Shown here piece by piece: positions 27,763 to 33,491 of a DNA stretch of 64,000 nucleotides. A model generated the notes under the pieces. That model saw nothing but the letters and a program-made list of their open reading frames with translations, was not told the origin of the DNA and ran no database searches. Origin of the DNA: Streptosporangium saharense (GTDB taxonomy: Bacteria; Actinomycetota; Actinomycetes; Streptosporangiales; Streptosporangiaceae). A program made the position numbers and the translations under genes. The first letter of the stretch is position 1. Each line of letters opens with the position of its first letter. The DNA lies in contig NZ_JACHJP010000002.1 of assembly GCF_014203715.1 (NCBI RefSeq), positions 1,116,001 through 1,180,000 of the forward strand, read 5' to 3'.

Positions 27763-28728
27763 TCAGCGGGTGCGGTCGTCGTCGAACAGGTCGGCCGCGT
27801 GCACGACGATCCTGGGGTCGGGCTCACCGACGATCTCGTGGTCCTTGTTGGTGTAGTCGAACCGGCTCAGGAGGTGGCGCATGGCCTCGACCCTGGCGCG
27901 CTTCTTGTCGTTGCTCTTGATCACCGTCCACGGGGCCTCCTCCGTGTCGGTGTGCAGGAACATGTCCTCCTTGGCCTGGGTGTAGTCGTCCCACTTGTCC
28001 AGCGACTCCAGGTCCATCGGCGACAGCTTCCACTGCCGCACCGGATCGACCTGGCGGATGATGAAGCGGGTGCGCTGCTCGGAGCGGGACACCGAGAACC
28101 AGAACTTCACCAGGTGGATGCCGTCGCGGACGAGCATGCGCTCGAAGGCGGGCGCCTGCTCCATGAACTCCATGTACTCCCCCGGCGTGGCGAAGCCCAT
28201 CACGCGCTCGACCCCGGCGCGGTTGTACCAGGAGCGGTCGAAGAAGACCATCTCCCCCGCGGCGGGCAGGTGGGAGATGTAGCGCTGGAAGTACCACTGG
28301 GTGCTCTCGCGCTCGCTGGGCTTCTCCAGCGCGACCACGCTCGCCCCGCGCGGGTTGAGGTGCTCCATGAAGCGCTTGATCGTGCCGCCCTTGCCCGCGG
28401 CGTCGCGGCCCTCGAACAGGATCACCAGCCGCCCGCCGGTGTCCTTGATCCAGTACTGCAGCTTGAGGAGCTCGATCTGGAGCAGCCGCTTGGTCCTGTC
28501 GTAGTCCGCGCGGTCCATCCGCTCCGGGTAGGGGTACTTCTCCCGCCAGGTGTCCACCGGGGTGCCGTCCAGCCGTACGAGAACCGGGTCGTCATCGTCG
28601 TCGTCGAGGACCCGCAGGTTCGGCAGCTCGTCGAGCAGGTCACTGCGGGCCGCCGCGGAACGCGTGTCGAGCACGGGGTAGCTCCTACCCTGTACGGGTT
28701 CCTCACCCACAAGACCTGTCATGGACAT
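27763..28728 (-). CDS. ppk2: Polyphosphate kinase 2 family protein
   Basis: A 321-aa P-loop kinase using polyphosphate and nucleotides. Walker A is [20 protein letters not shown] (G107-T116). The lid and Walker B region is [20 protein letters not shown]. The conserved [15 protein letters not shown] and [19 protein letters not shown] blocks are intact. A six-Asp run (42-47) and [16 protein letters not shown] mark the class with an N-terminal extension. The direction (GDP or ADP phosphorylation) cannot be set from sequence. It lies 44 nt upstream of hisI and may be co-transcribed. Confidence 0.95.
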
Positions 28729-28911
28729 CCTTCCCCCGGAGAGAACCCTGGGAGGCGCCCCTGAGCGGCGGCCCCCGGCTCTCCCTCTACCTCCATGTCA
28801 GCACGTTAATCCCCGACATAAGCCCACCAACAGCCCATTTGGCGTCTTGTAGGCCACTGTTCACCCCTCCCCACTTCCGACATGACAAAAAACCCACTAA
28901 ACAAGTAGGTC

Positions 28912-28940
28912 TTGACGGGATTGGGTTCCTGTGTTGAAGT
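28912..28940 (+). promoter_or_regulatory. Probable promoter of the sulfur operon
   Basis: TTGACG (28912-28917), a 17-nt spacer, and TGAAGT (28935-28940) fit a sigma-70-like promoter. The expected start point, 7 nt after the -10, falls on the A of the ATG at 28947, giving a leaderless transcript. Confidence 0.6.
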
Positions 28941-28946
28941 GAGGCC

Positions 28947-29024
28947 ATGCAGGCCGAGCTCCCATCGGCGATCCGCGGCCACCTCGCGCCGTGCCGCGCG
29001 CTGTCCTGTCCCTGTCGCCCCTGA
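28947..29024 (+). CDS. Leaderless cysteine-rich leader peptide (cysteine attenuator candidate)
   Basis: A 25-codon ORF, ATG at the predicted transcription start. It has three Cys codons close to the end, in PCRALSCPCRP just before TGA (Cys16, 21, 23). Poly-Cys leaderless ORFs that sense cysteine by ribosome stalling are established in mycobacteria upstream of sulfur genes. It precedes an LLM monooxygenase and amino-acid importer, a fitting target. The following 130 nt are C-rich and G-poor, suited to Rho loading. Not experimentally shown here. Confidence 0.6.
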   Translation: MQAELPSAIRGHLAPCRALSCPCRP

Positions 29025-29154
29025 CCCCGCGCCCTCAGTCCCGCGCGCCCGCCCCCCGGGCACCGCAGCACATACGCCGCACATCCGCCGCGCACCCGCC
29101 GTGGCGCCGCAACGCCCCCCGCCGCCCAGACGACCTGCCAGAAAGGCCTCAGTC

Positions 29155-30282
29155 ATGCCCGTCGAGTTCCTAGGCATAGGTGCCACGAACGACGGATCGG
29201 AGACGACGTCCCGCTCCGGGCCCGCGTTCGACAGACAGTTCACGCTACGGCTGGCGCGGGCCCACCACGAGCACGGCTGGGACCGGGTCCTGTTCGCCTA
29301 CGGCTCGGGCTCGCCGGACCCCGCGCAGGTCGCGGCCTACGTCGCCGGGCGGGTCGAGGGGCTCCAGATCCTGCTCGCCCACCGGCCCAACGTCTCCTAC
29401 CCGACGTTCGCCCTGAAGACCTTCGCCACGCTCGACCAGATCAGCGACGGCAGGCTGACGGTGCACTTCATCACCGGGGGCAACGGCCACGAGCAGGCCC
29501 GCGAGGGCGACTTCCTGTCCAAGGACCAGCGCTACGCGCGCACCCGGGAATACATCCAGATCGTCAAGAAGGGCTGGACGTCCAGGACCCCCTTCTCCCA
29601 CGAGGGCGAGCACTACCGCTTCGAGGACTTCCTGTCCGACGTCTTCCCCGTGCAGCAGCCCCGGCCCCGGGTCTCCTTCGGCGGCTCCTCCCCCGCGGCC
29701 TACGCGGCGGGCGGCGCCGAGGCCGACATCTACTGCCTGTGGGGCGAGCCGCTGGCCCAGACCGCAGAGCAGATCGCCGCGGTCAGGAGCGCGGCGCTCG
29801 CCTCGGGACGCAGGGACCTGCCCAGGTTCCAGGTGGCCTTCCGGCCCATCATCGCGCCGACCGAGGAGCGGGCCTGGGAGAAGGCGGCCCGCACGCTTGA
29901 GGCGATCAGGGCGCGCGGCACCTCCTCCCGGCGTCTTCCTCCCGGCCGCGCCCCGGAGAACGCGGGCTCGCAGCGGCTCGTCGCGATCGCGGCCGGAGGC
30001 GACAGGTACGACCGGGCGCTGTGGACCCCGACCGCGGCGGCCACCGGCGGGGCGGGCAACTCCACAGCCCTGGTCGGCACCCCGGAGACCGTGGCCCAGG
30101 CGCTGCTCGACTACTACGACCTCGGCGTCGAGATCCTCTCCGCCCGCGGCTACGACCTGCTTGAGGACGCCGTCGACTTCGGCCGTCACGTCATCCCCAT
30201 CGTCCGCGAGGAGGTGGCCAAGCGGGACCGTGAGCGCGAGGCCGCCGAGGCCGGACAGCAGACCAGTCTGGTCGGCCGGTGA
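29155..30282 (+). CDS. LLM-class FMNH2-dependent monooxygenase (SsuD-like)
   Basis: A 375-aa bacterial-luciferase-fold enzyme. SsuD-like features include EFLGIGATNDGS, FDRQFTLRLARAHHEHGWDR, QILLAHRPNVSYPTFALKTF and VHFITGGNGHEQAREGDFLS. It would use reduced FMN and O2 to split a C-S bond, releasing sulfite or a thiol. Relative to SsuD it has an Arg/Pro-rich insertion (TSSRRLPPGRAPENAG) near residue 260. ATG at 29155 follows AGAAAGG. It is the first structural gene of a five-gene operon; its TGA overlaps the permease GTG. A flavin reductase must come from elsewhere. Confidence 0.92.
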   Translation: MPVEFLGIGATNDGSETTSRSGPAFDRQFTLRLARAHHEHGWDRVLFAYGSGSPDPAQVAAYVAGRVEGLQILLAHRPNVSYPTFALKTFATLDQISDGRLTVHFITGGNGHEQAREGDFLSKDQRYARTREYIQIVKKGWTSRTPFSHEGEHYRFEDFLSDVFPVQQPRPRVSFGGSSPAAYAAGGAEADIYCLWGEPLAQTAEQIAAVRSAALASGRRDLPRFQVAFRPIIAPTEERAWEKAARTLEAIRARGTSSRRLPPGRAPENAGSQRLVAIAAGGDRYDRALWTPTAAATGGAGNSTALVGTPETVAQALLDYYDLGVEILSARGYDLLEDAVDFGRHVIPIVREEVAKRDREREAAEAGQQTSLVGR

Positions 30283-31166
30283 CCCGCCCCGCGGTCGAGA
30301 CGAGGCCGCAGGACAGCGAGGCCGTCGAAACGGCGGAGGCCCCGCCCACACTGAAGGTCGTCACCACCAAGCATCCGGGCCGGTGGGTGGCCGCGGCCGG
30401 GGTCGGCGTGCTGCTGGCCATGGCCGCCAGCGCGCTGATCACCAACCCCGCCTGGGACTGGAACGTCGTCGGGGAGTATCTCTTCGCGCCCTCGGTGCTG
30501 CACGCGGTGCTGTTCACCCTGCAGCTGACCGTGCTCGGCATCGGCATCGGCTTCCTGCTCGGCACCGTGATCGCGATCATGCGGCTGTCCAGGAACCCGC
30601 TGCTGTCGTCGGTCGCCTGGGGCTACGTCGCGCTGTTCCGGTCGATCCCGCTCATCCTGCAGCTACTGTTCTGGTACAACCTGGCGCTGCTGTACCAGCG
30701 GATCTCCTTCGGCGTCCCGTTCGGCCCCGCCTTCTTCGACATCGGGACCATGGACCTGATCAGCCCGGTCACCGCCGCCGTGCTGGGGCTCGGGCTGCAC
30801 CAGGCCGCCTACTGCTCCGAGATCGTCAGGGCGGGCCTGCTCTCCGTCGACCCGGGCCAGCGTGAGGCCGCCGCGGCGCTGGGCATCCCCTGGAGAAGGC
30901 AGCTTTTCAGGATCATCCTTCCGCAGGCGATGCGCTCGATCGTGCCCACCGCGGGCAACGAGATCATCGGCCTGGTCAAGGGCACCTCGGTGGTCTACAT
31001 CATGGCGCTGCCCGAGCTCTTCTACCAGATCCAGGTGATCTACAGCCGCAACGGCAGGGTCATCGCGCTGCTGCTGGTCGCGACCGTCTGGTACCTGATC
31101 ATCACCTCCGTGCTGTCCGTGGCGCAGCACTACGTCGAACGTCACTACGCCAGGGGTCGCAGATGA
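30279..31166 (+). CDS. Polar amino-acid ABC transporter permease
   Basis: A 295-aa protein of the His/Glu/Gln/Arg/cystine permease family. After a 40-residue cytoplasmic head come about five membrane helices. The EAA loop EAAAALGIPWRRQLFRIILP docks the ATPase, followed by QAMRSIVPTAGNEIIGLVKG. Start GTG 30279 overlaps the monooxygenase stop (GTGA). Probably forms a homodimer, since only one permease gene is present. Substrate inferred as a sulfur-containing amino acid or derivative from the operon. Confidence 0.93.
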   Translation: MTRPAVETRPQDSEAVETAEAPPTLKVVTTKHPGRWVAAAGVGVLLAMAASALITNPAWDWNVVGEYLFAPSVLHAVLFTLQLTVLGIGIGFLLGTVIAIMRLSRNPLLSSVAWGYVALFRSIPLILQLLFWYNLALLYQRISFGVPFGPAFFDIGTMDLISPVTAAVLGLGLHQAAYCSEIVRAGLLSVDPGQREAAAALGIPWRRQLFRIILPQAMRSIVPTAGNEIIGLVKGTSVVYIMALPELFYQIQVIYSRNGRVIALLLVATVWYLIITSVLSVAQHYVERHYARGRR

Positions 31167-31927
31167 GCGCCGCGATGGTCGATCTGCGGGACGTACACAA
31201 GAGCTTCGGCTCCCTGAAAGTCCTGCGCGGCGTCGATCTGCGGGTCGCCAGGGGCGAGGTCACCGTGATCCTCGGCCCCTCGGGCTCGGGCAAGTCGACC
31301 CTGCTGCGCACCGTCAACCACCTGGAGAAGGTGGACAGCGGATCGGTGCGCGTGGACGGCGAGCTGGTCGGCTACCGGCAGTCCGGCGACAGGCTCTACG
31401 AGCTGCGCGAGCGCGAGATCCTGCGGCAGCGGACCCGGATCGGGTTCGTCTTCCAGCACTTCAACCTCTTCCCGCACCTGACGGCGCTGGAGAACGTCGT
31501 CGAGGCGCCGCTGTCGGCGCAGCGCAGGCCAAAGGCCGAGGTGCACCGGCTGGCCGTACGGCTGCTCGACCGGGTGGGCCTGGCCGACAAGAAGGACGTC
31601 TACCCCGGCCAGCTGTCCGGCGGGCAGCAGCAGCGGGTCGCCATCGCCCGCGCGCTCGCCCTGGAACCGAAGGTCATCCTCTTCGACGAGCCGACCTCCG
31701 CGCTCGACCCCGAACTGGTCGGCGAGGTGCTCGACGTGGTGAAGGACCTCGCCAGGAGCGGCACCACCATGATCGTCGTCACCCACGAGGTCGGGTTCGC
31801 CCGTGAGGTGGCCGACACCGTCGTCTTCATGGACGACGGGCGCGTCGTCGAGCAGGGGCCACCCGCCCAGGTTCTCGACGCCCCCAGGCACGAGCGGACC
31901 CGTGTCTTCCTCAGCAAGGTCCTCTGA
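31163..31927 (+). CDS. Polar amino-acid ABC transporter ATP-binding protein
   Basis: A 254-aa ABC ATPase. Walker A is GPSGSGKSTLLRTVNHLE, the Q-loop is FVFQHFNLFPHLTALENV, the signature is LSGGQQQRVAIARALA, Walker B is VILFDEPTSALDPEL and the H-loop is VVTHEVGFAREVAD. It closely follows the GlnQ/TcyN pattern. ATG at 31163 overlaps the permease stop as ATGA. It energises the importer together with the permease and binding protein. Confidence 0.96.
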   Translation: MSAAMVDLRDVHKSFGSLKVLRGVDLRVARGEVTVILGPSGSGKSTLLRTVNHLEKVDSGSVRVDGELVGYRQSGDRLYELREREILRQRTRIGFVFQHFNLFPHLTALENVVEAPLSAQRRPKAEVHRLAVRLLDRVGLADKKDVYPGQLSGGQQQRVAIARALALEPKVILFDEPTSALDPELVGEVLDVVKDLARSGTTMIVVTHEVGFAREVADTVVFMDDGRVVEQGPPAQVLDAPRHERTRVFLSKVL

Positions 31928-31986: not shown

Positions 31987-32997
31987 ATGTCGTTCCTCTC
32001 CAGGTTCACGCCCGCCCTTCTCGCCGCGCCGCTTCTGCTCGCCGCCGCCTGCAGCTCGACCACGACCACCTCGGCGGCGCCGCAGGACAGCGCCAAGCCC
32101 GCGGACCAGGCGTCCGCCCCCGCGGAGGCCGGTGGCTCGAAGATCAACACCTCTCCGCAGCAGAACCGGATCCAGGCGGAGAAGGTCGACGCGATCGCCG
32201 CCCTGGTGCCCGAGGCGATCCGCTCGAAGGGCGAGCTGGTCGTCGGTTTCAGCGGTGACGGCGCGCCGCCGCTGACCTTCCTTGCCGACGACGACCGCAC
32301 CATCATCGGCGTGGAGACCGACCTCGCCCACATCGTGGCCGACGTCCTCGGCCTGAAGGCCAAGGACGAGGTCACCTCCTGGGAGAACCTGTTCCTCTCG
32401 GTGAAGTCCGGCAAGTACGACGTGGCCTTCAACAACGTCACCGTGACCGAGGAGCGCAAGGACATCTACGACTTCGCCACCTACCGGGTCGACCAGCTCG
32501 CCTGGCAGACGGCGAAGAACAACCCGATCACCTCGATCAAGCAGCCCTCCGACATCGCGGGCCGCAGGGTCGCGGTCGGCTCCGGCACCAACCAGGAGAA
32601 GATCCTGGTCGACTGGGACGCGCAGAACCAGAAGGCGGGTCTGAAGCCCGCGCAGATCCAGAACTACCAGAAGTACGTCGACGCCCTGCTCTCCCTGAAG
32701 TCGGGCCGCATCGAGGCCTACTTCGGCCCCAACCCCTCCCTCGCCTACCAGGACGCCGTCGGCGGTGACACCAAGATCGTCGGTACGGTCTCCGGCGCCG
32801 GTCCCGACCTGCAGGGCCTGATCGCGGCCATGACCAAGAAGGACAACGGCCTCGTCAAGCCGCTCAGCGCCGCGATCAACGAGCTGATCAAGAACGGCAA
32901 GTACGGCGAGGTGCTCAAGCGCTGGAACCTCACCAACGAGGCCATCCCCGAGTCGCTGGTCAACCCGCCCGGCCTGCCCAGGCAGACGGCGAAGTGA
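31987..32997 (+). CDS. Polar amino-acid ABC transporter substrate-binding lipoprotein
   Basis: A 336-aa family-3 solute-binding protein. The lipoprotein signal ends LLLAAACSSTTTT with the lipid-modified Cys at about residue 22. A Ser/Thr/Ala/Pro-rich linker follows, then two lobes (GELVVGFSGDGAPPLTFLAD; GVETDLAHIVADVLGL; DVAFNNVTVTEERKDIYDFA). The last is the usual ligand-binding segment. It is encoded 59 nt after the ATPase, and its TGA overlaps the GNAT start. Captures the imported compound outside the cell. Confidence 0.94.
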   Translation: MSFLSRFTPALLAAPLLLAAACSSTTTTSAAPQDSAKPADQASAPAEAGGSKINTSPQQNRIQAEKVDAIAALVPEAIRSKGELVVGFSGDGAPPLTFLADDDRTIIGVETDLAHIVADVLGLKAKDEVTSWENLFLSVKSGKYDVAFNNVTVTEERKDIYDFATYRVDQLAWQTAKNNPITSIKQPSDIAGRRVAVGSGTNQEKILVDWDAQNQKAGLKPAQIQNYQKYVDALLSLKSGRIEAYFGPNPSLAYQDAVGGDTKIVGTVSGAGPDLQGLIAAMTKKDNGLVKPLSAAINELIKNGKYGEVLKRWNLTNEAIPESLVNPPGLPRQTAK

Positions 32998-33491
32998 CGA
33001 CGGAGGCCGTCCAGGTCCGCCACGTCACGGTCCGCGACCCGCGGGTCAGGCCGCTGCTCGACGACCTGCACCTGGAGTACACCAGCCGCTACGGCCCGAA
33101 CGACGAGCTCAACAGCTATCCCGACGACGAGTTCACCGCTCCCCGGGGCGGGGCGTTCCTGATCCTCGTCGAGGACGGTCTGACGGTCGCCGGGGGCGCG
33201 CTGCGCCACCACGACGAGCGGACCGCCGAGTTCAAGCGGATCTGGACGCACCCCGGTCACCGGCGGCGCGGTCTCGGAGCCGCCGTCGTGCGCGAGCTGG
33301 AGCACACGGCCGTACGGCGGGGCTACCGGAGGGTCTACCTGACCACGGGACCCCGGCAGCCGGAGGCCACGGCTCTCTACCTGGCCGCCGGATACACCCC
33401 GCTCTACGACCTGGGCGCCGATCCCGAGGCCGTCGGGCCGCATCCCTTCGAGAAGGATCTCGGGCCGCTGGCCCAGGAGATCCACGGATAG
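32994..33491 (+). CDS. GNAT family N-acetyltransferase of the sulfur operon
   Basis: A 165-aa GNAT protein. The acetyl-CoA loop is RIWTHPGHRRRGLGAAVVRE, followed by TGPRQPEATALYLAAGYTPL. Start GTG at 32994 overlaps the binding-protein stop (GTGA), so it is translated as part of the import operon. In the Bacillus ytm system a GNAT acetylates S-modified cysteines before an LLM monooxygenase cleaves them. The same pairing here suggests that role (inference). Confidence 0.9.
   Translation: MTTEAVQVRHVTVRDPRVRPLLDDLHLEYTSRYGPNDELNSYPDDEFTAPRGGAFLILVEDGLTVAGGALRHHDERTAEFKRIWTHPGHRRRGLGAAVVRELEHTAVRRGYRRVYLTTGPRQPEATALYLAAGYTPLYDLGADPEAVGPHPFEKDLGPLAQEIHG

Follow-up and report, generated by a model that had tools for sequence, protein, structure and literature searches.

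An important question raised by the monooxygenase/importer operon of Streptosporangium saharense is whether the short open reading frame (ORF) at its 5' end is an accident of a GC-rich sequence or a leader through which cysteine supply could act on the operon. The window, i.e. the whole stretch of DNA that was analysed, comprises 64,000 nucleotides (RefSeq assembly GCF_014203715.1, contig NZ_JACHJP010000002.1, positions 1,116,001 to 1,180,000 of the forward strand), and all coordinates given here refer to it (table 1). The initial annotation had described a promoter, TTGACG-N17-TGAAGT, that places the transcription start on the ATG of an ORF of 25 codons, three of them for Cys. Both elements stand up in the sequence: six nucleotides after TGAAGT comes the A of the ATG at 28947, and this layout is shared by 69 of 80 monooxygenase loci. 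A generic sigma-70 scan of 28700-29300 did not find a promoter; it requires A as the second base of a -10 box, and TGAAGT has G there. The promoter is supported by conservation and not by a consensus score (at the other two of the 69 leader loci, the closest TTGAC lies at 8 nt), and its spacing, which fits and is conserved, would put the transcription start on the A of the leader ATG.

The genes downstream probably form a sulfur-scavenging operon, judging by what they encode, and the cystine-type matches of the transporter components all fall below curated cut-offs, so that cystine is only a candidate substrate. Within the best 80 orthologous loci, permease and ATPase genes were each matched in 53, and binding protein and GNAT genes each in 52 (E 1e-10, counting a match anywhere in the fetched DNA of a locus); since some partner genes at the loci inspected are on the other strand, the operon is only partly conserved. 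On its other side the leader adjoins a divergent polyphosphate kinase 2 gene (27763-28728, minus strand, TIGR03707 above cut-off).

Table 1. Leader, control elements and genes of the putative sulfur-scavenging operon, with positions in the window.
Feature	Position	Strand	Basis or remark
Operator-like dyad CCCACT-AAACA-AGTAGG	28893-28909	+	consensus CCTACT-N5-AGTAGG; 2 nt 5' of -35 box
-35 box TTGACG	28912-28917	+	TTGAC 35-37 nt 5' of leader start in 67/69 leader loci
-10 box TGAAGT	28935-28940	+	segment -60..-1: 88.5% identity with S. carneum
Predicted leaderless 25-codon leader ORF MQAELPSAIRGHLAPCRALSCPCRP	28947-29024	+	ORF translation; DNA identity to ortholog leaders
Possible in-ORF hairpin CGCGGC-CAC..GUG-CCGCG	28974-28999	+	predicted; counterpart of the orthologs' UUCG hairpin
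Cys16 codon TGC, lineage-specific	28992-28994	+	68 ortholog leaders: 63 with Gly, 5 with Cys
Cys21 codon TGT, not conserved	29007-29009	+	S. carneum has Pro, g31 has Ser
Cys23 codon TGT, family-register Cys	29013-29015	+	TGT in S. carneum, both g31 and 68/68 ortholog leaders
Weakly structured spacer, rich in C and poor in G; candidate region for Rho loading	29025-29139	+	composition, folding, terminator scan
Shine-Dalgarno AGAAAGG of monooxygenase	29140-29146	+	many orthologs have a GAAAGG-type site before the gene
LLM-class monooxygenase, SsuD-like	29155-30282	+	NF001939 E 6.8e-60, 203 bits vs cut-off 510; PF00296
ABC permease, polar/sulfur amino acid type	30279-31166	+	best match cystine permease, below cut-off; PF00528
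ABC ATPase, EhuA/TcyN-like	31163-31927	+	below cut-offs
Family 3 solute-binding protein	31987-32997	+	best match cystine type, below cut-off
GNAT acetyltransferase	32994-33491	+	PF00583

That the leader ORF is real follows from comparison with relatives, where leaders of the same layout precede the same monooxygenase. A scan of relatives' contigs with the monooxygenase as query gave the best 80 loci of 205 relatives, and 69 of these have a leader of the pattern M-x10-H-[I/L]-x-x-[G/C]-R-x5-C, with its stop codon 49-453 nt before the gene; they include the locus of S. carneum, close kin of the window, and a few have a start codon displaced by at least one codon. The leaders of the window (MQAELPSAIRGHLAPCRALSCPCRP), of G202 (MRADIRLVIRGHIDLCRVWSSSCQR) and of the Streptomyces locus L033 (MNAQQRLVSRDHIDFGRVWSAACCA) align without gaps, 25 codons to 25. 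At the DNA level the leader ORF is 85.9% identical to that of S. carneum over its 78 nt, compared with 52.2% in the spacer and 91.7% in the first 300 nt of the gene; ungapped identity to the G202 leader is 73.1% (2,000 random stretches of the window: mean 27.4%, maximum 42.3%), and that to the L033 leader 55.1% over 78 nt.

These orthologs also connect the window ORF to known leader peptide models. NF042936, the 'Ms4527A family Cys-rich leader peptide', refers by its name to the Mycobacterium smegmatis leader before MSMEG_4527, which is nirA in PMC4633059. The G202 leader matches this model (E 4.9e-5, 22.8 bits, cut-off 45) as well as NF042934, 'putative leader peptide' (cis_reg_atten; E 8.2e-4, 19 bits, cut-off 27), and the two Streptomyces ortholog leaders tested match NF042936 with E 2.3e-5 and 3.3e-5, all of them below the curated cut-offs. 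The leader peptides of the window and of S. carneum gave no NCBIfam match (for the window at E up to 10), in a search whose HMMER filters can drop weak ones, and core residues of the window leader are eroded, with IDL replaced by LAP and VW by AL. What the window leader has in common with NF042936 is its place, as a short ORF, where a sulfur operon begins (5' end), and a UGU codon at the register Cys, and its Streptomyces and g31 orthologs match that model at E 2e-5 to 5e-5, if with about 23 bits against the cut-off of 45; it differs in lacking a match of its own, in having neither IDL nor VW nor contiguous Cys, and in preceding a monooxygenase/importer operon. With NF042934 it shares the register R-x-H-x-x-x-x-R-x-x-S-x-x-C, and here, too, the window ORF itself has no match. 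Since the G202 leader, which has the promoter layout, gene, length and register of the window leader, matches both models whereas the window peptide matches neither, it is orthology that places the window ORF, as a diverged member, among the actinobacterial Cys leader peptides (NF042934/NF042936). Elsewhere in the S. saharense genome there are eight NF042934 matches (L001-L008), six of them above cut-off and none of them the window ORF, and such matches occur in 58 of the 61 genomes searched of the window's family and in 144 of the 197 genomes searched of the class. The leader set is old and widespread and probably lets ribosomes sense cysteine supply; that a leader of this sort occurs outside mycobacteria, as had been claimed, is true but not new in kind.

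Which part of the leader would do the sensing is a separate matter. The earlier description had taken three clustered Cys codons for the conserved working part, and this view could not be upheld: the window leader has Cys at 16, 21 and 23 only, never in adjacent codons, and because C16 and C21 vary among the orthologs, a clustering of Cys codons is ruled out as the conserved part. Conservation in relatives, which the initial annotation had proposed as a check, extends fully to C23, not to C21 and largely not to C16, which is Cys in S. carneum and in both g31 leaders and mostly Gly outside the window's family.

At the register Cys it is not only the residue but the codon that is kept. With S. 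carneum left aside, Cys23 is TGT in each of the 68 ortholog leaders, which comprise 24 distinct hairpin cores, and TGT likewise encodes the register Cys of 96 out of 96 NF042934-type family leaders (97 loci from a longer list, L117 being dropped because its motif was not at the expected place). In a class-wide set of 60 loci, one of which lacked the motif by the pattern used, TGT is found in 58 of 59, or 56 of 57 after removal of two repeats; the sole exception, L255, lies near a contig end, and the motifs of L209 and L246 are more than 1 kb from the expected place. Ordinary genes, as called by a rough ORF caller, use TGT for only 10-16% of their Cys codons, i.e. 16/141 in the window, 149/1,014 at the ortholog loci, 20/200 in relatives and 53/379 at the class loci, and where Cys follows six residues after Arg in long ORFs the share is 31/193. 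These counts are given without a p-value because the leaders compared are related. Other Cys codons of the leaders behave differently. Seven residues before the register Cys, the family leaders have TGC in 54 of 58 cases, and in the 57 class-wide leaders TGC makes up 21/23, 16/22, 15/31 and 8/15 of the Cys codons seven, four, two and one residues before the register and 4/8, 3/8 and 7/10 of those one, two and three residues after it. With non-register codons thus mixed or mostly TGC, the constraint falls on one register, Cys-rich leaders included.

Folding predictions bear on why UGU should be kept. A consistent A partner for the register U is predicted only in the RRAVD subtype (37/39), which rules out one universal pairing as the cause. 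The register U is, however, somewhat more paired than average (0.303 vs 0.387 unpaired), and changing it to C costs 0.84 kcal/mol on average, as opposed to -0.07 for other T-to-C changes, so that in these models a structural reason is possible. UGU is a codon read by wobble, and slower wobble decoding would be the simpler idea. It is quite possible, if still short of probable, that Cys leaders throughout the class sense cysteine at this one fixed UGU codon under synonymous selection, the codon being kept because, read by wobble, it would be the first to stall as charged tRNA-Cys declines, or because its U would be part of a switch structure; poly-Cys tracts would not be the main element, and other Cys codons, Cys16 (UGC) for example, would be optional, with free codon choice. 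Our literature searches found nothing on UGU at the register Cys, on which Canestrari 2020 may have something to say; as far as these searches reach, the rule is new.

Codon choice is also constrained further upstream in the ortholog leaders. Codons 11-20 of the 68 leaders mostly read GACCACAUCGACUUCGGUCGnGUGUGGUC or GAUCAC... and are predicted to form a hairpin with a UUCG loop that is more stable than synonymous recodings would make it (mean z -2.28; 67/68 below -1). Val18 is GTG in 68 of 68 and Gly16 is GGT in 60 of 63, with shares of 0.40 and 0.09, respectively, in the monooxygenase genes; the codon choice of the hairpin (GGT16, GTG18) is thus far from the usage of the neighbouring gene. 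For the window counterpart, 38% of synonymous recodings fold as well, compared with 5% for S. carneum and 9-11% for g31. Across the subtypes of the 96 family leaders, mean z is +0.09 (n = 26), +0.20 (11), -0.93 (38), -1.43 (6), -0.84 (7) and -0.45 (8), by which the hairpin is ruled out as a general family feature. Directly after the leader stop, L033 (3074-3239) and 36 other loci, mostly of Streptomyces, carry an element GGCAGC...GGGCCGUCUGACCGGCCC...CUCGG...CCGAG...GCUGCC, identified by a loose pattern, GGCAGCGGGCC...GCUGCC, that matched in 37 of 68 loci (identical copies counted once); by eye, GCAGC might alternatively pair with the Cys codons UGUUGC. Alignment of 31 of the 37 elements gave, with RNAalifold, a double change in 1 of 42 pairs, so that the predicted fold rests on energy and not on covariation, the sequences of both the in-ORF hairpin and the post-stop element being too alike. 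In L033 the element had no Rfam match at gathering score, and by eye it is absent from the window.

Upstream of the promoter lies a dyad that was absent from the earlier description of the locus and is probably an operator. Its core, CTA-N6-TAG, occurs upstream of 13 of 16 same-family orthologs, with a one-base variant in a 14th (L016). By pattern alone the case is weak, with one match in the window at up to two mismatches where 0.51 are expected, and nine matches to ACTAAAYNNGTAGG in the whole genome at up to one mismatch against five for the reversed control. By our reading, four of these nine precede sulfur-type genes, and the other five do not or precede genes that were not identified. Three copies are exact: the window locus, L108, which precedes an NtaA/DmoA-type monooxygenase (263.9 bits, cut-off 279.7), and L107, the gene behind which was not identified as sulfur-related. 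Copies with one mismatch precede two SsuA-like genes (by eye), one of which stands behind an NF042934 leader (L112/L007). Sulfonate-type genes follow near copies at L108, L109 and L112. Among the 96 family leaders, five have such a dyad within 140 nt upstream of the core, compared with 64 of 20,000 random windows. In titles and abstract starts, a literature search on this operator or on a Streptomyces Cys leader returned nothing on this locus.

Dyad and promoter are more widely kept in the window's family than the leader is. Monooxygenase matches at E 1e-60 or better were found in 4 of 16 same-genus genomes (that of G013 being only 46% identical), and matches at 1e-120 in 15 of 250 family genomes. 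When 16 distinct same-family orthologs are sorted by upstream sequence (the more distant L103-L105, at 57-60% identity and with no dyad match, lie outside this set), the leader is present in four, namely the window, S. carneum, G202 and G180; nine keep dyad and promoter without a leader, L028 has the dyad alone, and L020 and L102 have neither. Presence of the leader differs within two genera: in g1 the leader is found in the window and G006 and not in G014, in g31 in G202 and G180 and not in G171. Of the 11 loci among the best 80 for which no leader was found, nine are in the window's family (Sphaerisporangium, Planotetraspora, Microtetraspora, Nonomuraea and Streptosporangium subroseum), one is in Saccharothrix luteola (L047), where TTGACG is kept, and one has only 112 nt of upstream sequence.

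This distribution bears on whether the window leader still works. It could be a relic, decayed in the window lineage, with operator and promoter alone running the operon as in the leader-less relatives, nine of the 16 same-family orthologs being of that kind; the eroded core residues without a model match, a hairpin no better than many synonymous recodings and the codon changes relative to S. carneum (by hand count six with and two without an amino-acid change) would all suit such decay. Yet ORF length, stop codon, C16 and C23 with its UGU have been retained, the ORF is far more similar to that of S. carneum than the spacer is, Cys21 has been added and the spacer is strongly C-rich, all of which makes a relic unlikely. 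Still harder to maintain is the notion that a real promoter happens to be followed by an accidental ORF. Short Cys-bearing frames are indeed common in GC-rich DNA, and on a purpose-built profile the window peptide scores weakly, being equalled by 230 of 29,708 C-ending 18-mers (a background that includes real leaders) and by 154 of 20,000 shuffles; orthology, however, with same-register leaders in 69 of the best 80 loci and the 73.1% DNA identity to the model-matching G202 leader, is so strongly contrary that we regard chance as highly improbable. The window leader is likely to be a functional Cys attenuator.

As to how such an attenuator might be read out, the C-rich and G-poor stretch reported before the monooxygenase is clearly there: the leader stop is 130 nt from the monooxygenase start, and the 116 nt at 29025-29140 contain 66 C, 29 G, 15 A and 6 T, a C-minus-G excess equalled in 0.2% of 25,554 stretches of that length on both strands. 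In predicted folding stability the leader region (28947-29170) ranks below 183 of 200 shuffles (z +1.32), and a C-rich, G-poor, weakly structured stretch 3' of the leader is what a Rho-dependent attenuator would be expected to have. An intrinsic-terminator attenuator is rejected at the window locus, since no terminator-like site was found in 28700-29300; a custom scan saw a terminator hairpin with a U run between leader and gene in 6 of 72 leaders. The post-stop excess comes to 0.151 for 50 ortholog leaders, those of the window and g31 included, and to 0.146 for the 96 family leaders. Both sets of controls are lower: 80 post-stop gaps give 0.054 (Mann-Whitney p 1e-7 and 2e-7), and 81 upstream stretches give 0.057, a less significant difference (p 9e-6 and 5e-6). 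The tests ignore relatedness, and the controls may include a few leader gaps. This excess suits Rho, and equally any need for an unstructured spacer. With a usual ribosome footprint, a stall at C23 would shield only the first nucleotides of the spacer, and because so little of it is shielded, the switching in a Rho readout is left without explanation. Rho as the readout, plausible in view of the weakly structured C-rich spacer, the lack of a terminator-like site and a Shine-Dalgarno sequence predicted to be open, is a tentative proposal. Alternatively, the leader RNA could fold over the Shine-Dalgarno sequence of the monooxygenase, which a ribosome stalled at a Cys codon would open. Such translational attenuation is how the mycobacterial readout, not a Rho-dependent one, is described in PMC13236596 and PMC9031893, and in models of the two g31 loci the sequence becomes more open when the whole ORF is blocked (0.65-0.68, up from 0.30-0.31). 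In the window, however, the Shine-Dalgarno sequence is predicted to be 0.69-0.71 unpaired in every modelled state, so that no hiding is predicted; a modelled stall leaves the mean over 72 leaders at 0.385 -> 0.387 (changes above 0.1: five up, seven down), and the weak folding of the window leader speaks against it as well. Folding models of GC-rich RNA are rough. We consider translational attenuation rather unlikely here. In Rfam searches, the window stretch gave one sub-threshold minus-strand match (RF02040 HOTTIP_1, E 0.033, 21.2 bits, cut-off 50), taken as chance, and eight loci gave no match at gathering score.

Overall, comparison of sequences shows that promoter, ORF length, stop codon and Cys23 (UGU) are conserved and that the ORF shares descent with leaders that match the Ms4527A model. 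On this basis it is fairly likely that 28947-29024 encodes a leaderless cysteine leader, a diverged ortholog of the 'putative leader peptide' family, through which the monooxygenase/importer operon is controlled in cis. When charged tRNA-Cys is scarce, ribosomes would stall at UGU23, with Cys16 and Cys21 adding to stalling in the window leader, and the operon would be on; when cysteine is plentiful, ribosomes would finish and leave, and Rho could act on the naked C-rich spacer to end transcription before the monooxygenase. In addition, the dyad operator by the -35 box probably brings initiation under sulfur control.

This scheme can be set beside known systems. TnaC senses free Trp via its nascent peptide and shields a Rho site at its own stop codon. 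Control of the tna operon by TnaC and Rho resembles the present scheme in combining a leader peptide with a downstream Rho site; Trp sensing by the nascent peptide and shielding at the stop codon are features of TnaC. The precedent for leaderless Cys leaders is mycobacterial, as described in Shell 2015 (PMC4633059) and, for the polycysteine leaderless small ORFs of Canestrari 2020, through papers that cite it (PMC9094748, PMC9031893, PMC13236596). As described in these sources, the mycobacterial ORFs resemble the window leader in a leaderless layout, which for the window is predicted, in their Cys codons and in their sulfur genes, and differ from it in that the window leader lacks contiguous Cys codons and is known here from sequence alone. 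The core of the original idea, that a sulfur-type operon is preceded by a Cys leader, predicted to be leaderless, like those of mycobacteria, survives through the orthologs, the link to NF042934/NF042936 and the excess of C over G in the spacer; the poly-Cys part does not. Another Cys-codon attenuator, uORFC-8-2 before cysS in Rhodobacterales, differs, according to PMC8632094, in its 3' U run, tandem Cys codons, dominance of UGC and bacterial class. PMC8079986 describes eight Streptomyces leaders and assigns none to Cys; the 'metL' of S. lividans in its Table 4 (MSTTSDRTPATEATTTPGARCMCRRMCAF, metNIQ) has three Cys codons near its end and, going by this peptide, might belong with the Cys leaders and not with those for Met.

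A leader that NCBIfam models miss is thereby placed in a family whose mycobacterial members include some that have been studied by experiment, and the leader set is old, yet missing from some close relatives of the window. The part likely to do the sensing has been narrowed from three Cys codons to a single one, UGU, whose register is fixed. Were experiments to bear out the UGU rule, one synonymous codon choice would be a direct handle on the reading of cysteine supply, and the window ORF, in which the peptide motif is eroded and UGU23 is kept, would provide a natural test of which part matters.
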